From Candidatus Schekmanbacteria bacterium (GTDB taxonomy: Bacteria; Schekmanbacteria; GWA2-38-11; J061), in NCBI GenBank assembly GCA_016219965.1, contig JACRJM010000008.1:1-14621 (forward strand): a stretch of DNA of 14,621 nt. Reading direction: 5' to 3'. Both the position numbers and the translations under genes were made by a program. This document shows positions 816 through 14,102 of this stretch, piece after piece. Within the stretch, counting starts at the first letter, position 1. Each line of letters starts with the position of its first letter. The notes under the pieces are model-generated. The model worked only from the letters and a program-made list of their open reading frames with translations. It made no database searches and had not been told where the DNA came from.

Positions 816-2003
816 ATGGAGAAAGTTGTAATAGTAAGTGCAGTAAGAACTCCATTTGGAAACTTTGGGGGTATACTTAAAGATTTTACACCCGCTCAGC
901 TTGGCGGAATTGCAATAAAAGAAGCTATGAACCGTATAAAGCTTGACCCTGCAAAGGTTGAAGAGGTTGCGTTAGGAGTAAACCTTCCGGGCTCAGACAG
1001 GTCTATTGCAAGGCAGGCAGAGCTAAATGCAGGAATCCCTGACTCCGTTCCGGCTTACACATTAGACAGGGCATGCTGTTCAAGTCTCACAGCAATAGGG
1101 CTTGAATCTCAAAACATAATGCTCGGCCAGATTGCTGTTGCTGTTGCAGGTGGCGCGGAAAACATGAGCCAGGTCCCATATTTCATCCATGAAGCGAGAT
1201 GGGGGCAAAAGATCGGGGACATAACACTTAAGGACCAGCTTGTAATCAAGTGTCCATATTCAGGCGTTCCACGTGCCCTGCAGGCAGGAATAGAATCAGT
1301 TGAATTTGGCATTTCAAGAGAAGACCAGGACCGATGGGCACTGCGCAGCCAGCAGGCATGGGCAAAAGCATTCGAAAGCGGGAAATTCGGCGATGAGATA
1401 GTGCCCGTACCCATTCCGCAGAGGAAGGGAGATCCTGTAATGTTCAGCAAGGACGAACCTCCGCGCCCCGAAACAACAATAGAACAGCTCGCAAAACTGA
1501 AAACTGTTTATGACAGCCCCACAGTAACACCCGGAAATGCGCCGGGACTCAACACAGGAGCAAGTGCAGTAGTCCTTATGAGCGAGACTAAAGCTAAAGA
1601 ATTAGGACTTAAACCGATTGCAACTATTGTTTCTCATGTAAGAAATGCGGGCCATCCTCAGAGGATTGGTTCTATCCCCGGTTACACCGCACAAATAGCT
1701 TTAAAGAAAGCTGGGCTCACCATTGATGATATAAGCCTGATAGAAATTAACGAGGCATTTGCCGCAATGCCTCTCATATCAACGAAGATTCTCGGAAACA
1801 ACGATGATGCTAAAATCGCTGCCATAAGGGAAAAAACAAATGTAAACGGGGGAGCCATCGCCATAGGTCATCCCACAGGCGCAACAGGCGCAAGACTTGT
1901 TATGACCCTTGCCTATGAGCTTAAGAGACGTGGAGGTGGCTATGCGCTTGCAACAATTTGCGGAGGCATAGGCGAAGGGGAAGCATGCATAATCAAGGTT
2001 TGA
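816..2003 (+). CDS. Thiolase family protein (acetyl-CoA C-acyltransferase)
   Basis: This 395-residue protein has the standard thiolase length. Thiolases cleave 3-ketoacyl-CoA with CoA or run the condensation in reverse. The nucleophilic Cys is C87 in RACCSSL. The C-terminal half has NEAFA (N312-E313), H352 in GGAIAIGHPTGATGAR and C382 in CGGIGEG, so the Cys-His-Cys set is intact. GGAENMS (112-118) and the GISREDQDRWALRSQQ helix (165-180) are also typical. The N-x-x-C before the nucleophile is D-x-x-C, and the usual MGxTAE loop is degenerate, so substrate range may differ from common thiolases. I chose the ATG at 816 because GGAGAGGAG lies just before it; the frame extends up to a TTG at 762 without a good ribosome-binding site. 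It is the first gene of a four-gene operon and lies 36 bp ahead of the mutase gene. Confidence 0.9.
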   Translation: MEKVVIVSAVRTPFGNFGGILKDFTPAQLGGIAIKEAMNRIKLDPAKVEEVALGVNLPGSDRSIARQAELNAGIPDSVPAYTLDRACCSSLTAIGLESQNIMLGQIAVAVAGGAENMSQVPYFIHEARWGQKIGDITLKDQLVIKCPYSGVPRALQAGIESVEFGISREDQDRWALRSQQAWAKAFESGKFGDEIVPVPIPQRKGDPVMFSKDEPPRPETTIEQLAKLKTVYDSPTVTPGNAPGLNTGASAVVLMSETKAKELGLKPIATIVSHVRNAGHPQRIGSIPGYTAQIALKKAGLTIDDISLIEINEAFAAMPLISTKILGNNDDAKIAAIREKTNVNGGAIAIGHPTGATGARLVMTLAYELKRRGGGYALATICGGIGEGEACIIKV

Positions 2004-2039: not shown

Positions 2040-3722
2040 ATGGACAAGAACGAACTAAAGAAAATTGAGCAGCAGAAGCTGGAATGGGAAAAAAATGAAC
2101 TTGCTGATTATTTAAAAACAGCACCTGAACGGGCTAAACAATTTGAGACAAACTCAGAAATCCCTGTTGAAAGGGTCTATACGCCAATTGAACTTGATAA
2201 AGAGGGATTTGATTTTGAAAAAGACCTGGGATTTCCCGGACAGTTTCCTTATACCCGGGGCATAACTCCATCCATGTTCAGAAGCCAGCTATGGACAATG
2301 GGTCAATACTCCGGGTTCGGCAGTGCCGAAGATACAAACAAAAGATATAAGTATCTTCTTGCGCAGGGACAGAAGGGAAACAGCGTAGCTTTCGATCTTC
2401 CTACGCAGTTGGGTTACGACTCCGACCATCCGGTTGCAAGCGGCGAAGTCGGAAAAGTTGGCGCGGCTGTTGATACCCTTCGCGATTTTGAGATACTCTT
2501 TGACGGTATTTCCATAGGTGAAATACGCCAGTCTATGACTATCAATGCAACGGCTACAATAATACTTTCCATGTATATTGCAATCGCTGAAAAACAGGGA
2601 ATACCCAAAAGCGATATCGAAGTATTCATGCAGAATGATATCCTAAAAGAATACGTTGCCCGCGGAGCTTACATATTTCCGGTAAAGCCATCAATAAAAC
2701 TCGTTACAGATATTTATGAATATTGTTCTAAATATATGCCAAAATCATCACCTCAGCGGATTTGCGGCTACCATATGCGCGAAGCAGGCTCAAATGCCGT
2801 ACAGGAGCTGGCATTTACGCTTGCCAATGCCATAAGCTACCTGACTGCCGCAAAGGAAAGAGGTTTGAACATCGACGACTTTGCACATGGGCTTCTTATA
2901 TTCCTCTCAGGCGATGGTGAGTTTTTCGAAGAGATAGCAAAGTTCAGGGCATGCCGCAGGATGTGGGCAAAGATGATGAGGGAAAGGTTCGGAGCCAAAG
3001 ACCCCCGTTCGATGCAGGTAAGGTTTTTCGGCTACACGGCCGGTTCAACAATGACAGCCCAGCAGCCTTTGAATAATATAATAAGAGCAACCATTGAATC
3101 AATGGCAATGCTTTTGGGCGGTGGAAATATCATATTTGTATCGTCGTATGATGAATCTCTGGCGCTCCCCTCGGAAGAGTCGGTCACAATAGCTCTGAGA
3201 ACGCAGCAGATAATAGCTGAAGAATCCGGAATTGCAAAAACCGTTGATCCTATCGGCGGCTCATATTATGTAGAAACTCTTACAAACAGGCTTGAAAAAG
3301 AAGCTCTCAAATATATCCAGAAAATAGATGAAATGGGAGGCTCCGTAATAGCAATAGAAAAAGGATATATCCAGGAAGAGATAGCGAGAGAATCGTACAA
3401 GATGCAGAAGAAAATTGAGAAGGGGGAAAAGGCGATCGTAGGTGTCAATAAATACAGAGACAATAAACAGCAGAAGACTGCGATACTCAAGGTCGACCCT
3501 GATGTAGAGAGAAATCAGAAAGAACGCTTAAGGCAGGTTAAAAGAGACAGAGACAACGAAAAGGTAAAACAAATACTCTCAAAAATAAAAGAAGTGGCTG
3601 TGACAAAAGAGAATATCATGCCAACAATGATAGAAGCTGTAAAATGCTATGCAAGCATTGGTGAAATAAGCGATGCACTTCGCGAGGTATATGGGAAATA
3701 CGAAGGGAAAGTCTATTTATAG
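2040..3722 (+). CDS. Coenzyme-B12-dependent acyl-CoA mutase, large (substrate-binding) subunit, divergent
   Basis: These 560 residues cover the TIM-barrel catalytic domain of the methylmalonyl-CoA mutase family and stop before any B12-binding domain (no DxHxxG), so it is the large subunit of a two-subunit enzyme. Family hallmarks are FPYTRGI (69-75), QKGNSVAFDLPTQLGYDSDHP (111-131), QNDILKEY (198-205), GYHMREAG (243-250) and TVDPIGGSYYVE. By alignment to Propionibacterium MCM, with numbering from memory, Tyr89, Gln197, Arg207, His244 and Glu370 are kept as Y90, Q198, R208, H245 and E372. Many substrate-pocket and CoA contacts are changed: T76, Q83, G88, F196, G284, L286, F330, Y332, N363 and S368 replace Tyr75, Arg82, Arg87, Thr195, Arg283, Ser285, His328, Gln330, Gln361 and Asn366. 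The kept Tyr/Arg pair argues against isobutyryl- or 2-hydroxyisobutyryl-CoA mutase and for a carboxylated substrate. GGAGAGG precedes the ATG. The small subunit must be encoded elsewhere. Confidence 0.88.
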   Translation: MDKNELKKIEQQKLEWEKNELADYLKTAPERAKQFETNSEIPVERVYTPIELDKEGFDFEKDLGFPGQFPYTRGITPSMFRSQLWTMGQYSGFGSAEDTNKRYKYLLAQGQKGNSVAFDLPTQLGYDSDHPVASGEVGKVGAAVDTLRDFEILFDGISIGEIRQSMTINATATIILSMYIAIAEKQGIPKSDIEVFMQNDILKEYVARGAYIFPVKPSIKLVTDIYEYCSKYMPKSSPQRICGYHMREAGSNAVQELAFTLANAISYLTAAKERGLNIDDFAHGLLIFLSGDGEFFEEIAKFRACRRMWAKMMRERFGAKDPRSMQVRFFGYTAGSTMTAQQPLNNIIRATIESMAMLLGGGNIIFVSSYDESLALPSEESVTIALRTQQIIAEESGIAKTVDPIGGSYYVETLTNRLEKEALKYIQKIDEMGGSVIAIEKGYIQEEIARESYKMQKKIEKGEKAIVGVNKYRDNKQQKTAILKVDPDVERNQKERLRQVKRDRDNEKVKQILSKIKEVAVTKENIMPTMIEAVKCYASIGEISDALREVYGKYEGKVYL

Positions 3723-3752: not shown

Positions 3753-4970
3753 ATGAGCAATCCGAGACGCCCCCTTGACGGCATAAGGGTTCTGGGCGTG
3801 GAAAACCAGGTAGCAGGACCATATTGTACGATGATGCTGGCTGCACAGGGCGCAGAAGTAATAAAGATAGAATCTCCGGGCACAGGGGACTCAGCAAGAG
3901 AAATGGGTCCCATAATAAAAAATGCTAAGGGAGAAAAATTCAGCGGCTATTTCCTCCGTTTCAACAGAAACAAGAAGGGAATTACCCTTGATATCAACAG
4001 CGAGCGTGGAAAAGAGATTTTCAAAGAACTTGTCAAAGAAAGCGACGTAATTGTTGAGAATTTCAGGCCTGGATTCATGGATAAAAATGGTCTCGGCTAC
4101 AGCGTTCTGCGTGAGATAAATCCAAGAATAATATATGCCGCCATAAGCGGTTTCGGACAGATGAAGGGATTCGAAGGGCCATTTCAGAAAAGAACTGCTT
4201 TTGACATGGTTGTACAGTCAATGGGCGGACTGATGCACAATGTGGGAGAAGAGGACGGCCCTCCGAACTGGCTGGGTATTGCTCTGGGTGATATATACTC
4301 AGGGGTAATGGCTGCTTACGGAATACTTCTTGCATTAATGGTGCGCGAGAAGACCGGAGAGGGACAGTTCATAGACAGCTCTATGTACGACAACATGATA
4401 TCCCTTAATGAAAGAGCCCTAACTGCATACTCCCTTACAGGCAATATCATGGGACGCGGTAAGGAGTCTCTTGTATACCCAATCGGACCATACAAGGTTA
4501 AGGACGGATATGTAGCAATGATTATTCCCATTGAATCTATCTGGGGAAAGCTTTGTCAGACCATAGGCAGGGAAGATCTTGCAAAAGACGAAAGATTTAA
4601 CTCCGGCCCCAATAGGGCAAAGAATGCAGGCATATTGAAGCCAATCATAGACGAATGGATGAAGGACAAAACAAAGAAGGAGGCAACAGATCTTCTCCTT
4701 CAGGGTGGAGTCCCCGTAGGACCAGTACAGGACTCAAAAGATATCTTCGAGTGCCCCCATGCAAATGCAAGGCAGATGTTCCCTGAAATCGAACAGACTC
4801 CAATAGGAAAAGTAAAGATCGTTGACCTGCCACTTAAGATGTCAGGTGTTGACAAGGTAAAGCCAGGACCTGCCCCGCTCCTCGGCCAGAATACGGACGA
4901 AGTGCTTTCCAATATACTTAATTTAAGTGCTGACCAGATAGCAAAACTCAGGGCCGAAAAGATAGTGTGA
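3753..4970 (+). CDS. Family III (CaiB/BaiF) CoA-transferase
   Basis: At 405 residues it matches the usual length of formyl-CoA transferase-type enzymes, which move CoA between carboxylic acids through an aspartyl-CoA thioester. The N-terminus PLDGIRVLGVENQVAGPYCTM, then GAEVIKIESPGTGDSAR (33-49), the NRNKKGITLD stretch (71-80) and VENFRPGFMDKNGLGY (101-116) are classic for the family. D180 in WLGIALGD is the expected catalytic Asp. The C-terminal part (VPVGPVQDSKDIFECPHANARQM) is also typical. It has a strong ribosome-binding site (AAGGAGG) and lies 30 bp after the mutase gene. In this setting it probably activates the pathway acid, as the related BbsEF activates benzylsuccinate, but the acid cannot be read from sequence. 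Confidence 0.92.
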   Translation: MSNPRRPLDGIRVLGVENQVAGPYCTMMLAAQGAEVIKIESPGTGDSAREMGPIIKNAKGEKFSGYFLRFNRNKKGITLDINSERGKEIFKELVKESDVIVENFRPGFMDKNGLGYSVLREINPRIIYAAISGFGQMKGFEGPFQKRTAFDMVVQSMGGLMHNVGEEDGPPNWLGIALGDIYSGVMAAYGILLALMVREKTGEGQFIDSSMYDNMISLNERALTAYSLTGNIMGRGKESLVYPIGPYKVKDGYVAMIIPIESIWGKLCQTIGREDLAKDERFNSGPNRAKNAGILKPIIDEWMKDKTKKEATDLLLQGGVPVGPVQDSKDIFECPHANARQMFPEIEQTPIGKVKIVDLPLKMSGVDKVKPGPAPLLGQNTDEVLSNILNLSADQIAKLRAEKIV

Positions 4971-4998: not shown

Positions 4999-5481
4999 AT
5001 GCCAAAGGTTAAAGATGTTCATAGACTTGGAGTGATCGTAAAAGATTTAGAGAAAGCAGTAGATTTTTTTGTGAACAATTTTGGCGCAAAAAAAGGGATC
5101 GTATACAGAAAAGATGAAACTGAAAATTTTCCGATCGTATATGATGAAATAGAACCTGAAGGACTAAAGTCATGTTATGTCACTCTGGGACAGGATTTCC
5201 AGATTGAGCTTATGTCACCTTCAAAGCCTGACGGCAATATAGCAAAGCTCCTTGAGAAGCGTGGGGAAGGAATCCTTACCGTATGCTTTCAGGTTGACAG
5301 CGTAGATGAAGCTATCAAAGAACTCGAATCAAAAGGAGTAAGAATCGTAGGTAAAGAACAACTTAACTGGATAACAAAAATAAAGATGGCAGATGGGAGC
5401 ATAAAGGAAGTACCTACACCTTATGTTTTTGTTCATCCGAAAGATGCATTCGGGCTTATGATAGAGATTGGGCTCAGATAA
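4999..5481 (+). CDS. VOC-superfamily protein related to methylmalonyl-CoA epimerase
   Basis: The 160-residue protein has two beta-alpha-beta-beta-beta modules of the vicinal oxygen chelate fold: VHRLGVIVKDLEKAVDFF (7-24) with FQIELMSP (67-74), then ILTVCFQVDSVDEAIKELESKG (92-113) with FGLMIEI (151-157). Placed against methylmalonyl-CoA epimerase, metal ligands H8, E70 and E156 are in place, but the His of the family's GLHHxA motif is replaced (GILTVCF, L93/T94). A full mutase-type epimerase metal site is therefore not present. Position after the mutase and CoA-transferase genes, 28 bp downstream, suggests it acts on the mutase substrate or product. It is the last gene before a terminator. It could instead be a non-epimerase VOC enzyme. 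Confidence 0.75.
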   Translation: MPKVKDVHRLGVIVKDLEKAVDFFVNNFGAKKGIVYRKDETENFPIVYDEIEPEGLKSCYVTLGQDFQIELMSPSKPDGNIAKLLEKRGEGILTVCFQVDSVDEAIKELESKGVRIVGKEQLNWITKIKMADGSIKEVPTPYVFVHPKDAFGLMIEIGLR

Positions 5482-6245: not shown

Positions 6246-6265
6246 ATGTAAAAGGTTCTTTTGTT

Positions 6266-6751
6266 ATGCCTCTTGAACAATACAGGAAGAAGAGGAATTT
6301 TAAAAAAACCACTGAACCTTCGGGCGAAGATTTCCCCCCCAGAGGTGAAAATCTTATCTACACAATTCAGGAGCACCATGCATCGCACCTCCATTATGAT
6401 TTAAGACTTGAGATTGAAGGAGTACTAAAGTCCTGGGCGATCCCTAAAGAACCTGATCTTTCCGGCATTGCAAAACGCCTTGCAGTTCAGACTGAAGACC
6501 ATCCGATCGGCTATGAAAACTTTGAGGGGGAAATTCCGGAAGGTGAATATGGTGCAGGAGATGTAAAAATATGGGATAAGGGAACATGGGCTCCACTTGA
6601 AATTAAAGACGACAGGATAATTGCTGAAATTTGCGGGGAAAAAATTATAGGCGTGTGGTGCCTGATCAAACTGAAAAAAGATAAATTCTCTAAAAAGGAT
6701 GCTTCAAGCCAGAACTGGTTGTTTTTCAAAAAAAAGGAGAAGAAGAAATAA
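6266..6751 (+). CDS. Stand-alone LigD-type DNA 3'-phosphoesterase
   Basis: The 161-residue protein is the phosphoesterase domain found at the N-terminus of many bacterial ligase D proteins, here without polymerase or ligase domains. The domain trims 3'-phosphate and 3'-ribonucleotide ends to give 3'-OH. The motif QEHHASHLHYDLRLE (35-49) supplies H37, H43, D45 and R47, and H79 in TEDHPIGY matches the remaining active-site His (by comparison with Pseudomonas LigD, from memory). VKIWDKGTW (100-108) and the closing NWLFFK are also typical. The ATG at 6266 has AAAGG upstream; a longer reading into the nth gene would lack the usual start. The Lys-rich tail (KKKEKKK) may bind DNA. It follows nth by 20 bp, so both probably act on damaged 3' ends. 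Confidence 0.9.
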   Translation: MPLEQYRKKRNFKKTTEPSGEDFPPRGENLIYTIQEHHASHLHYDLRLEIEGVLKSWAIPKEPDLSGIAKRLAVQTEDHPIGYENFEGEIPEGEYGAGDVKIWDKGTWAPLEIKDDRIIAEICGEKIIGVWCLIKLKKDKFSKKDASSQNWLFFKKKEKKK

Positions 6752-9823: not shown

Positions 9824-11611
9824 TTAAATCCCGAGTTCTGAAATCTTTTCCTTTGTAGGCACGCCGTTGTTGTCCCAACCGCGCAAAGCATAGTACTCTG
9901 TAAGCATCGGTTCGAAATCAACTGTTTCCCCCTTCGATGGCCCCTCAGACATAGGTTCACTTATGACGCGCGGAGGCAGGGAATCATCTTTTCTTGTAAA
10001 CCCTGCTTTAACATTAAAAAGCCTCTCAACGTTAAATATTCTTTCTCCAGCCTTTATATAATCATCAAGCGTGAAATTGTGTCCAGTTGCTGCACTGATA
10101 AGCTTGGTAAAAGGTTCATGCTGGACAACAACAGTGGCAAAAAGGCAGGCACCTGTCGAATCAATCGCAGCATTAAGGTTCTGAAAATCCCGTGCTAGTT
10201 CAGCTTTCCCCTCTGTTATCTTAGCTTTAACTTTTTTTGGAATACCGAAAAGTTCTGCAAAAACCGTAGCTCCTCTCGTATGGTCTCCACCACGAGGGTT
10301 GGTAGAATATGTAAGCGCCATCCCTTTTGCACCGCGCGGATCGTAAGCTGATATCTCCATTTTTTTCGAAGTCATTGAGAGTTCAGGTCTTCCATATTTT
10401 TCTGCAAGCCTGTAACTGCCAAGTGCAAGGAGATCTCCAAAGCCCTCGCGAAGACCTGTTTTTCTTGTAAGCTCTACCATTGCCTTCGCATCACCAAATT
10501 TAAGAGGCATTCCGACTTCTTTCTCACTTATAAGCCCGAGTTCAAAAAGTTCCATTGCCGTCGCAATAGTTACACCCACAGATATGCTGTCCATACCTAG
10601 CTCATTGCAGATATAATTCGCCTTTGCCACTGCATTTATATTGTCAATCCCGCAGGTAGAACCAAATGCATATATAGTTTCATACTCAGGGCCTTCCCCT
10701 GTTCCTTCGAAACCTTCTTCCTTGACCCTGGTCACGCGCCCACAACCCAGCACACAGCCGTGACAACTTCTTTTCCTTACAAGTATCTTGTCCCTTATTG
10801 CCTGTCCGTTGAGATTCGGAGCACCTGCGAAAACTCCTTCACGGTAGTTGTTGGTAGGGAAAATGCCTACTGCATTGCAGTAATCAACAGCCATTGGAGT
10901 TCCAAAGTAACCATACCCCTTGGCAACATCTCCTTTGAAGAGGTTTGAAATCTCAACATTCACATCCCTGAACCCGTCAGCCACTGCAAAACCCTTTGTA
11001 CCTCTCACAGCGATAGCTTTAACATTTTTTGAACCCATCACTGCACCAACACCTGACCTGGCAGCAGACCTGTTCATGTCATTTATTATTGCTGCCATTA
11101 GAACAAGCTTTTCTCCGGCAGGTCCGATACATGCAACCTTTGCCCTGTGATCTGTCTTTGATTTTAGGGCTTTTGTAGTCTCATGGGTATTCATCCCCCA
11201 AAGCTCAGATGCATCCTTCAATTCAATCTTGTCGTTGTTGATCCAGATATAGATTGGCTTTGGAGACTTTCCTTCAAGGATTATGCCATCGAAACCAGCA
11301 GCCTTTAACTCCGGTCCCCAGTATCCGCCTGAATTGGAACATGCAATTGTCCCGGTCTGTGGAGATTTAGTCACAACCATGAATCTTGCTGCGCAGGGAG
11401 CACCTGTCCCTGTAAGCGGACCGGTCATTATAAACAATTTGTTATCTGGGGAAAGCGGGTCTATAGTTGCATCAATCTCATCCAAGAGCATCTTTGACGC
11501 AATTCCTCTTCCACCTATATATTTTTTTGCAAGGTCCTCGTTTAAAGGCTCAACAGTACACTTGCTTTCCGTAAGATTTATCCTAAGGATTTTTCCAGTC
11601 CATCCTTTCAT
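9824..11611 (-). CDS. Aldehyde:ferredoxin oxidoreductase family tungstopterin enzyme
   Basis: At 595 residues it is close to the length of archaeal AOR, which oxidises aldehydes to acids (or reduces acids) with ferredoxin. The N-terminal domain begins with GWTGKILRINLT and has YIGGRGIASKML and GPLTGTGAPCAARF (64-77). The [4Fe-4S] cluster ligands are C283, C286, C290 (CHGCVLGC) and C489 (STGACLF). The pterin-binding segments are NDMNRSAARSGVGAVMGSKN (177-196) and AYDPRGAKGMALTYSTNPRG (422-441). GPEYETIYAFGS and H444 in GGDHTRG match the catalytic Glu and His regions. The start overlaps the ferredoxin gene by 4 bp (ATGA), so the two are coupled. Class II benzoyl-CoA reductase (BamB) is in the same family, but nothing here supports that use. 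The aldehyde or acid substrate is unknown. Confidence 0.92.
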   Translation of the reverse strand: MKGWTGKILRINLTESKCTVEPLNEDLAKKYIGGRGIASKMLLDEIDATIDPLSPDNKLFIMTGPLTGTGAPCAARFMVVTKSPQTGTIACSNSGGYWGPELKAAGFDGIILEGKSPKPIYIWINNDKIELKDASELWGMNTHETTKALKSKTDHRAKVACIGPAGEKLVLMAAIINDMNRSAARSGVGAVMGSKNVKAIAVRGTKGFAVADGFRDVNVEISNLFKGDVAKGYGYFGTPMAVDYCNAVGIFPTNNYREGVFAGAPNLNGQAIRDKILVRKRSCHGCVLGCGRVTRVKEEGFEGTGEGPEYETIYAFGSTCGIDNINAVAKANYICNELGMDSISVGVTIATAMELFELGLISEKEVGMPLKFGDAKAMVELTRKTGLREGFGDLLALGSYRLAEKYGRPELSMTSKKMEISAYDPRGAKGMALTYSTNPRGGDHTRGATVFAELFGIPKKVKAKITEGKAELARDFQNLNAAIDSTGACLFATVVVQHEPFTKLISAATGHNFTLDDYIKAGERIFNVERLFNVKAGFTRKDDSLPPRVISEPMSEGPSKGETVDFEPMLTEYYALRGWDNNGVPTKEKISELGI

Positions 11612-12120: not shown

Positions 12121-13242
12121 TTAATTTGCCTCTGAGAGAGCAAATTCTATTTCACTTCTTATACTATCTTCCGTCCTTCTGTTCAATGCCGAATTAAGCA
12201 TTTGTCTTGCCATTTCTCCTCCGATCATGCCTGCTGCCCAAGCCGCATATCCTGCAAGTTCTTCATCACTATTATAAAGCAAGCTCTGTAATACCGGAAG
12301 TGCCCTTTCATCGTGGAAATTCCCGAGACCTAGAACTGCATTGCGCTGAAGATACTTCTTGTCCATCAGAAAAAAACCCATAAGCGTCATTGCATATCCA
12401 TTATCCCATTCTTCATCAGTAATCTCTGCTATCTTAAAAAGCGGCGGATAAAGAAGTTCTTTTGGAGTTTCATATCCTTCTACTTTTTTTAGATTCCGGT
12501 TTTTCGGACATGCATCCCTGCATACGGTACACCCTTCTCCAAGCAGATTGCCGCACTTTGCCCGTATTTCATGGGGAATATTTTTTTTGTTATGCCCAAG
12601 ATGAAAATCAATACACTTTGTCATATCGCACCTGTAAGGCACAGATAGTGCGTTAGTAGGACAAGCTCTCATGCAAAGATCACATTTCCCGCAAACATCA
12701 TTCATTGACTGATCGGGCTCCATTTCTGCATCAGTTATAAAAGCTCCCAGTGTTATCCATGACCCGTAATCAGGATGAAGGATGACGGCATTTTTCCCAT
12801 AAACACCTACCCCACACTTAGAAGCCATGAGCTTTATAGGAAATGAACCTCCAGTCATTGAAAAACACTGACAGCCCTTCCCTGTAAAAAAATCAGTAAG
12901 CTTTGAACTCCTCTCTGCATTATTTTGAAGATATTTCACATTCACGTGAGACTGCTCAGCACATCCTAGAAGTTCCCTTCGGCACTCCTCAAAGCTTTGC
13001 ATCCTCCCCAAAAACCCAGGAGTTCCAACTATTACTACAGATTTTGCTTCAGGCAACAAATCTTTAGGCTGAAAAACAGTTTCAATCCCTCCTGAAAGAG
13101 GTGTAGCCTCCGCAAATTTTTTCTGGACGAAAGAGAGCCTTTCCATGTCAGCACCCGAAAAATCATCAGCTGCAACAATTCCTACGAGCGGTATTTTGAG
13201 TTCCCTTTCAGCAAATTCCATAAAGTCAGATTTCAGACTCAT
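12121..13242 (-). CDS. QueG-like double [4Fe-4S] protein with C-terminal HEAT repeats
   Basis: The 373-residue protein has the layout of epoxyqueuosine reductase: an N-terminal domain, GVYGKNAVILHPDYGSWITLGAFI (146-169), a double-cluster ferredoxin domain with C184/187/190/194 and C230/238/241/245 (plus C205 and C210), then two or three HEAT helices from about 296 on (RNAVLGLGNFHDERALPVL; AGYAAWAAGMIGGEMARQML). QueG reduces epoxyqueuosine in tRNA using cobalamin. Its catalytic Asp sits in a DSxP motif; here the site reads TGGSFP (130-135), so the Asp is replaced by Gly. That makes true queuosine synthesis doubtful; a corrinoid- or Fe-S-based redox role is more likely. GAAGGGA precedes the ATG. 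It lies 27 bp ahead of the ferredoxin gene in the AOR operon. Confidence 0.82.
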   Translation of the reverse strand: MSLKSDFMEFAERELKIPLVGIVAADDFSGADMERLSFVQKKFAEATPLSGGIETVFQPKDLLPEAKSVVIVGTPGFLGRMQSFEECRRELLGCAEQSHVNVKYLQNNAERSSKLTDFFTGKGCQCFSMTGGSFPIKLMASKCGVGVYGKNAVILHPDYGSWITLGAFITDAEMEPDQSMNDVCGKCDLCMRACPTNALSVPYRCDMTKCIDFHLGHNKKNIPHEIRAKCGNLLGEGCTVCRDACPKNRNLKKVEGYETPKELLYPPLFKIAEITDEEWDNGYAMTLMGFFLMDKKYLQRNAVLGLGNFHDERALPVLQSLLYNSDEELAGYAAWAAGMIGGEMARQMLNSALNRRTEDSIRSEIEFALSEAN

Positions 13243-13310: not shown

Positions 13311-14102
13311 TCAAGGAAAAAACTTTGCTGTTGGAGGAAGTATCGCCCCGAGCAGAGCTTCTGCCGGTATTCCCTTCTCGATTCCGAATATCGTGCCGCT
13401 ATCCTCAAGAAGAGTCCACTGTACCCACGCGCCGTGCTGTTTAAGCTTGTAGTCAATATCATTCTGCGTAAACTTCTGACCTTTACACTTTTCAACAAGG
13501 TCAAAATAGAGTTTTATAAAGGTGTCAGCCATATCCTTCATAAATGGATAGTCGCTTTCTTCAAGATGGAATGAGTAAATGCCGGCGTGAGCTCCAACCT
13601 TTTTGTTGGTATACTTGGATTTAAAAAAATTTGCCCTTACCTGTCTCAATTCCTCATAGTCCTTGCCATGCCTCTTGCAAAGCTCTTTTATCCCATCAGC
13701 AAAGTATTTTTCATCTTCTTCATTCGAATAATATGATTTTATATCCGTACCACCTGCGAACACAACTTTGTCAGTTATATTTGCTCGAAGCTCAATATAC
13801 GCCTTTGGGATAAAAGGATTTATGGGAAAGAAATGAAGCTCGAGAACCATAGCATCAGCCTTGCTTCCTTTCTGCCCAAGTTTTTCTGCAAGCACCGGAG
13901 GGGTATCAATCTTGAGATCACAGTATATCATGCTCGCTTTATCAAACTGTTCACCGCTTGAAATGCTTACATCCAGCTTTCCCATGGGGATATCCCACGT
14001 TTTTCTTTCAATCTTTGCAGAGGGGTTATACCGAAGACATAACTGCTCATAACGCCTGATGACATCCATTAAAAAATTTACCACTTCGGATTTTTGCATC
14101 AT
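13311..14102 (-). CDS. Divergent HemF-fold protein (O2-dependent coproporphyrinogen III oxidase family) lacking the family's histidines
   Basis: These 263 residues align almost end to end with HemF. Matching landmarks are NPFIPKAYIELR (95-106, HemF NPYVPTSHANVR), FAGGTDIKSYYSNEED (115-130, FGGGFDLTPFYGFEED), NFFKSKYTNKKVGAHAGIY (158-176) and EDSGTIFGIEKGIPAEALL (233-251, DRGTLFGLQTGGRTESIL). HemF oxidises coproporphyrinogen III in haem synthesis with O2. Here the conserved HemF His positions are lost: NFSHVHG reads IYCDLKI (59-65), HPHNP reads FPINP, SHAN reads AYIE, and KHR reads KYT. D234 of the DRGT motif is kept but the Arg is Ser. Ordinary coprogen oxidase activity is unlikely; tetrapyrrole binding or a new reaction is possible. 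GGAGGGG precedes the ATG at 14102. It is the first gene of the AOR operon. Confidence 0.8.
   Translation of the reverse strand: MMQKSEVVNFLMDVIRRYEQLCLRYNPSAKIERKTWDIPMGKLDVSISSGEQFDKASMIYCDLKIDTPPVLAEKLGQKGSKADAMVLELHFFPINPFIPKAYIELRANITDKVVFAGGTDIKSYYSNEEDEKYFADGIKELCKRHGKDYEELRQVRANFFKSKYTNKKVGAHAGIYSFHLEESDYPFMKDMADTFIKLYFDLVEKCKGQKFTQNDIDYKLKQHGAWVQWTLLEDSGTIFGIEKGIPAEALLGAILPPTAKFFP

Follow-up and report, generated by a model that had tools for sequence, protein, structure and literature searches.

The window, the whole stretch of DNA analyzed here, is the entire contig C8 (14,621 bases) of a 3.58-Mb genome (98% complete) of a Candidatus Schekmanbacteria bacterium. It contains an operon encoding, in this order, a thiolase, the large subunit of a B12-dependent mutase, a CaiB-type CoA-transferase and a VOC protein (Table 1), and the operon is conserved in 4/4 Schekmanbacteria genomes. 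The mutase reading frame is intact, with an ATG at position 2040, a ribosome-binding-like sequence (GGAGAG) upstream and a stop codon that ends at position 3722. Profile searches matched the protein over its full length to PF01642 (674 bits, cut-off 22.1) and TIGR00641 (702 bits, cut-off 303.8). Furthermore, its AlphaFold model (pLDDT 92.5, pTM 0.92) aligned structurally with methylmalonyl-CoA mutase (MCM, 1REQ) over 545 residues (rmsd 2.4 Å, Z 52.3) and with HcmA, the large subunit of 2-hydroxyisobutyryl-CoA mutase (HCM, 4R3U), over 552 residues (rmsd 1.5 Å, Z 53.6). HcmA is the closest solved relative, with 44% identity over the aligned residues. Profile and fold both assign the protein to the acyl-CoA mutase large-subunit family, and the similarity to glutamate mutase GlmE (1CB7; 12% identity, Z 21.8) is that of a different family. 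The MCM equivalog model PRK09426 scored the window mutase at 577 bits, under its cut-off of 876; the normal MCM large subunit of the same genome is likewise under the cut-off (692 bits) because the model expects a fused protein.

Table 1. Operon genes and pocket segments of the mutase in the window (residue numbers as in 1REQ).
Feature	Position	Strand	Basis or remarks
Thiolase	816..2003	+	PF00108/PF02803; catalytic Cys and His present; CPYSGVPRA
B12-dependent mutase large (substrate-binding) subunit, 560 aa	2040..3722	+	PF01642, TIGR00641; CoA side of pocket rebuilt
Beta-1 segment	2265..2303	+	Tyr75>Thr 2265-2267, Arg82>Gln 2286-2288, Arg87>Gly 2301-2303
Tyr89, kept	2307-2309	+	directly after the beta-1 segment changes
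Gly194>Val, Thr195>Phe	2622..2627	+	adjoin kept Gln197; V and F in 4/4 orthologues
Arg207, kept, carboxylate-binding arginine	2661..2663	+	alignment
Beta-5: Ser239>Arg, Ser241>Cys; His244 kept (2772-2774)	2757..2774	+	alignment
Arg283>Gly, Ser285>Leu	2889..2897	+	alignment
His328>Phe, Gln330>Tyr	3027..3035	+	alignment
TQSLHTN replaced by GNIIFVS	3123..3143	+	alignment; orthologues G[NQ][IFM]IF[VL]S
CaiB/Frc-type (family III) CoA-transferase	3753..4970	+	PF02515, 387 bits
VOC protein, methylmalonyl-CoA epimerase-like	4999..5481	+	TIGR03081, 67 bits (cut-off 115)

The CoA side of the mutase pocket is rebuilt

Residues were numbered as by the authors of 1REQ and aligned against 1REQ, human MCM (2XIJ/2XIQ) and HCM. 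A first-pass annotation made from the sequence had listed replacements at positions 75, 82, 87, 195, 283, 285, 328 and 330 and the loss of the TQSLHTN motif (Table 1), together with the retention of Tyr89, Gln197, Arg207, His244 and Glu370. All of these appeared in register in the alignment with 1REQ, which has no gap near the motifs, and a structure-based alignment covering 545 residues of 1REQ and 552 of 4R3U left the residues unshifted. A register shift at the pocket is very unlikely because the model superposes on both structures over almost its full length.

The kept and lost residues fall on opposite sides of the pocket. We take the 13 substrate contacts of MCM, and its CoA contacts other than Arg207 and the CoA channel, to be those of the 1REQ annotation. 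Seven of the 13, at the acyl end, are kept (Met78, Thr85, Tyr89, Ser114, Gln197, Arg207, His244) and six, on the CoA side, are lost (Tyr75, Arg82, Arg87, Thr195, Arg283, Ser285). Other conserved positions lost are Gly194, which is Gly in 56/56 relatives compared, Phe286, His328, Gln330 and the SLHTN stretch. B12-facing residues are retained (Phe117, Arg207, Gly333, Glu370, Ala373), and the two that changed (139, 206) are as in other two-subunit relatives. The changes at Tyr75 and Arg82 are weak evidence, since ordinary relatives carry Gln, His or Arg at 75 and Lys or Gln at 82; positions 87, 194, 195, 283, 285, 328, 330 and 360-366 carry the diagnostic changes. The Schekmanbacteria mutases have also gained basic residues (Arg/Lys) at MCM positions 162 and 239.

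This combination differs from the signatures of the mutases compared, as the first-pass annotation had also maintained; the comparison took in MCM, HCM and ICM-type enzymes. The window mutase shares with MCM the fold, the Tyr89/Arg207 pair with Gln197 and His244, and Glu370. Unlike MCM, it has no fused B12 domain, and Arg82, Arg87, Thr195, Arg283, Ser285 and TQSLHTN are changed in 4/4 orthologues. HCM has, like the window mutase, a separate small B12 subunit. However, its pocket is the reverse: HCM has Ile and Gln in place of Tyr89 and Arg207 (Ile90 and Gln208 in its own numbering) and keeps Arg82, Arg87, Thr195, Arg283, His328, Gln330 and SLHTN. At the HCM-diagnostic positions 89/90, 116/117 and 207/208 (Ile, Asp, Gln), the window mutase has Tyr, Ala and Arg. 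ICM-type enzymes (IcmF, 4XC6, and the paralogue C15:456012 in the same genome) belong to the same superfamily and have the same fold, but the paralogue carries the Phe89/Gln207 signature of non-carboxylated substrates with intact CoA residues, whereas the window mutase has Tyr and Arg. To our knowledge, every characterized member of the family that differs in specificity alters a few acyl-end residues and retains the CoA grip. The rebuilt mutases invert this pattern, and do so in two lineages of distant sequence and with a fixed gene set.

The rebuilding extends along the tunnel for the CoA arm, where eight small and polar positions have become bulky and hydrophobic. Their summed volume is 1242-1269 Å3 (about 1246 Å3) in the Schekmanbacteria mutases and 1218 Å3 in the mutase of a second phylum described below (G050), compared to 1028±13 Å3 in relatives. 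Hydropathy shifts in parallel, from -19.5 in relatives to between +12 and +14 in Schekmanbacteria and +7 in G050. In human MMUT, CoA is threaded through this channel, and the same study supports the role of Arg207 (PMC10356863).

Of the 13 substrate residues, 9-13 are lost in MutA-type inactive subunits from five other genomes, as are 6-7 of the 7 B12 residues. Thus, the rebuilt pocket is not simple decay, which in these subunits also removes the acyl-end and B12-facing residues that the window mutase retains. HCM and ICM-type relatives with changed acyl specificity, on the other hand, retain Arg87, Thr195, His328, Gln330 and SLHTN. Neither decay nor an ordinary switch of acyl specificity fits the pattern when set against these controls.

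Conservation in Schekmanbacteria and in a second phylum

Three Schekmanbacteria orthologues (79, 68 and 68% identity) share the rebuilt pocket, and 81 other relatives have a largely normal one. An orthologous contig (MGDB01000108.1, 17,864 bases) comes from Candidatus Schekmanbacteria bacterium GWA2_38_11, of the same order as the window genome. The first-pass annotation had proposed that a separate clade with conserved substitutions would point to a new substrate class. Indeed, in a tree built with the pocket columns left out, the four Schekmanbacteria mutases grouped with 100/100 support, and the substitutions are conserved among them. The 81 relatives have 162 positions that are at least 90% conserved; all four mutases differ at 21 of these, and the changes concentrate in the pocket. 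They include 10 of the 16 conserved positions on a list of substrate and CoA sites (Fisher p = 7e-7), a value that is only indicative because this list (21 sites) was partly taken from the earlier annotation; the 13 substrate sites alone gave p = 0.07. The operon genes are under strong purifying selection, with dN/dS of 0.04-0.06 where dS was measurable and about 0.04 for the mutase.

Across 386 sampled genomes, the mutase profile scored at least 1177 bits in the four orthologues, and the next protein, with 831 bits, has an ordinary pocket. The VOC profile dropped from 302 to 70 bits outside the operon set. Apart from the four Schekmanbacteria genomes, the thiolase profile exceeded its threshold only in G050, which is the only genome of its phylum in the searched collection; a second set of 316 genomes, sampled around G050, yielded no further case. 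These samples span a few hundred bacterial families, and the operon may be more widespread. Plasmid records contained nothing above ~53% (mutase) or ~47% (thiolase) identity.

The G050 cluster encodes a CaiB-type CoA-transferase (59% identity), a thiolase (62%) and a mutase (48%). The mutase lost the same six CoA-contact residues and retained Tyr89, Gln197, Arg207 and His244. Its replacements include Arg82>Gln, Arg87>Gly, Gly194>Val, Thr195>Leu, Arg283>Ser, Ser285>Trp, His328>Leu and Gln330>Phe, and 16 of the 21 conserved positions altered in Schekmanbacteria are also altered here. It lacks the new arginines (Gln162, Asn239), and no VOC gene was found adjoining the G050 genes. A single clade of the Schekmanbacteria and G050 mutases was neither shown nor rejected by the tree (AU p = 0.20). 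The shared gene partners speak for a gene set of common origin.

Operon partners and other mutases

Each of the five rebuilt mutases is accompanied by the same two partners, an unusual thiolase and a CaiB-type CoA-transferase, which are 75-80% and 73-83% identical, respectively, among the Schekmanbacteria. In the thiolase, a Pro-Arg motif replaces the His-Met pair of four solved PDB thiolases and is invariant in 5/5 operon thiolases; other conserved CoA-loop residues are kept. The His-Met pair lies near the pantetheine arm. The best NCBIfam match of the transferase is succinyl-CoA:mesaconate CoA-transferase (353 bits, under the cut-off of 700). In one orthologue (G002, L070:10963-12168), the codon for the catalytic Asp is AAT, for Asn (ALGD to ALGN), and the other orthologues have Asp. 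Compared to 3RMU, the VOC protein has two of the four metal ligands (His, Glu/Gln, His, Glu) replaced in all four genomes (the window, L069, L070 and L071): both Glu are kept and the two His are Arg9 and Thr or Ser 94 (Thr94 in the window). This makes a role as a normal metal-dependent epimerase unlikely.

Elsewhere, the genome encodes a stand-alone B12-binding subunit (131 aa) adjoining MeaB, an ICM-type mutase, and an ordinary MCM that has all the CoA residues except Tyr75 and adjoins an epimerase scoring above the TIGR03081 cut-off. A fourth mutase (L074:6980-8575; G000:C15 near 247,000) keeps Tyr89/Arg207, has Arg283>His, His328>Phe, Gln330>Ala and SIHVS, and adjoins a three-subunit molybdenum hydroxylase. 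G050 has an additional mutase (L048 / L147:7721-9376; G050:C10) with His328>Phe, Gln330>Gly and ALHVC for SLHTN that retains Tyr89/Arg207, Arg87 and Arg283. The mutase query also had 19 matches, some of them fragments, in a 2.5-Mb genome (G035), an unusual paralogue expansion.

Candidate substrate and reaction

From these sequence comparisons, we read the mutase of the window as belonging to a separate subclass, with a carboxylated substrate that CoA does not carry in the usual way. Judged by the residues it retains, the enzyme should carry out the familiar radical acyl shift on such a substrate; judged by those it has lost, it should not grip CoA in the customary manner. The carbon chain that is rearranged is probably one handled by no known enzyme of the family, because the catalytic end is kept, the CoA grip is replaced, and a thiolase and a CoA-transferase are always alongside. 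The first-pass annotation had suggested a carboxylated substrate, which the retained Tyr89/Arg207 pair supports, that is either bulky or has its CoA part held differently. A substrate without any CoA appears somewhat more likely to us, since the tunnel lining is bulky and hydrophobic and the CoA-side arginines are gone.

Our preferred reading, held at a probability of roughly 0.4, is that the protein is the substrate-binding subunit of a functional AdoB12 mutase of its own subclass that acts on a free acid with a ketone carbonyl. Consistent with it are the recurrence of one pattern of retention and loss in four Schekmanbacteria genomes and, at 48% identity, in G050; B12-facing residues like those of two-subunit mutases, in a protein that, unlike the MutA controls, has not lost both sets; the shift in tunnel volume and hydropathy; the conserved partners and low dN/dS; the small subunit beside MeaB and the ordinary MCM beside its epimerase; and the path of CoA in human MMUT (PMC10356863).

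The partners of the mutase would be the stand-alone B12-binding subunit and, as chaperone, MeaB, both encoded outside the operon. Tyr89/Arg207 would hold the carboxylate and Gln197/His244 the carbonyl of the migrating group. With the tunnel relined by bulky hydrophobic residues and three CoA-side arginines gone, a hydrophobic substrate tail could occupy the path of the pantetheine arm. Acyl migration would convert a 4-oxo acid (in the simplest case levulinate) to a 2-methyl-3-oxo acid, onto which the CaiB-type transferase would put CoA. Thiolysis by the thiolase would then yield propionyl-CoA, which could enter the ordinary MCM/epimerase route, and an acyl-CoA. We infer the tunnel closure, the free-acid substrate and the order of reactions, and a levulinate-like 4-oxo acid is our best specific guess at the substrate. 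That a CoA mutase lineage abandoned CoA altogether, plugging its tunnel and shifting the ketone acyl group of a free acid in a route for levulinate-like acids, is a more doubtful proposal. If true, it would be a new B12 route from such acids to propionyl-CoA and acyl-CoA. The prediction, which can be tested, is that this uncultured phylum has a B12 carbon-skeleton rearrangement and a degradation route that are both new; genes annotated in this group as 'methylmalonyl-CoA mutase' probably have a different function.

GlmE, a B12 mutase barrel that acts on a free acid, is an earlier example of such a barrel with no CoA tunnel. The ketone chemistry is plausible because MCM accepts carba(dethia) ketone analogues. 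However, literature searches on levulinate, cobalamin and mutase and on ketone-type B12 mutases found nothing relevant, including no paper on an enzyme of this type. Other observations also weigh against a free-acid ketone substrate: the transferase and thiolase are CoA enzymes that fit a CoA-ester substrate too, the basic residues at 162 and 239 could form another anion site, possibly for CoA, and the new Arg of the thiolase may indicate an acyl chain with a second charge, which simple levulinate does not have. The Asn codon in the G002 transferase and the missing VOC neighbor in G050 fit it poorly as well.

Nearly as likely as the free-acid substrate is a CoA thioester with a bulky or hydrophobic carboxylated acyl group, its CoA arm held by other residues, for which the Arg at MCM positions 162 and 239 and Lys111 are candidates. 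The retained Tyr89/Arg207, the CoA enzymes encoded by the partner genes and the Arg/Lys gained at 162 and 239 in Schekmanbacteria are all compatible with such a substrate. Furthermore, hexylmalonyl-CoA has been proposed as the substrate of the HCM-subclass mutases ActD/MatB (PMC5719088). Yet G050 has the same losses without the new arginines, the bulky residues are in the CoA tunnel itself, beyond the acyl end, and HCM and ICM-type enzymes changed their substrate while keeping the CoA-side residues and SLHTN.

The loss of CoA contacts could also mark a catalytically dead paralogue whose role as a partner is structural or regulatory, as with MutA of Propionibacterium; heterodimeric MCM does have a non-catalytic homologous subunit. 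We consider this unlikely, as the acyl-end and B12-side residues that MutA controls lose are kept, purifying selection is strong and the pocket changes are themselves conserved. Slightly less likely still is a mutase whose thioester substrate is borne by a thiol other than CoA or by a carrier protein. Changes in both the mutase tunnel and the His-Met pair of the thiolase would fit this, but no carrier-protein gene lies in or beside the operon, other conserved residues of the thiolase CoA loop are kept and the transferase is an ordinary member of family III. An ordinary MCM with a drifted pocket, suggested by the Tyr89/Arg207 pair and the family-level HMM match, is very improbable and was rejected given the genome's own normal MCM beside an epimerase and a changed pocket that 4/4 orthologues share and that is also present in a second phylum.

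Mutase, family III CoA-transferase and thiolase are also combined in pathways of alkane degradation with alkylsuccinyl-CoA mutase and of benzylsuccinate CoA-transferase. Unlike in those pathways, the window operon has no decarboxylase, and a search of the genome for a glycyl-radical enzyme (PF02901) found none; fumarate addition is not favored for this last reason.

Other genes in the window

A QueG-like iron-sulfur protein with C-terminal HEAT repeats, under the QueG cut-off, is encoded at 12121-13242 (-). The region at 13311-14102 (-) codes for a homologue of oxygen-dependent coproporphyrinogen oxidase that scores well under the NCBIfam cut-off, and the genome with this homologue also carries an aldehyde ferredoxin oxidoreductase (9824-11611). 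At 6263-6751 (+), a stand-alone DNA ligase D 3'-phosphoesterase domain (PF13298) adjoins an endonuclease III gene.
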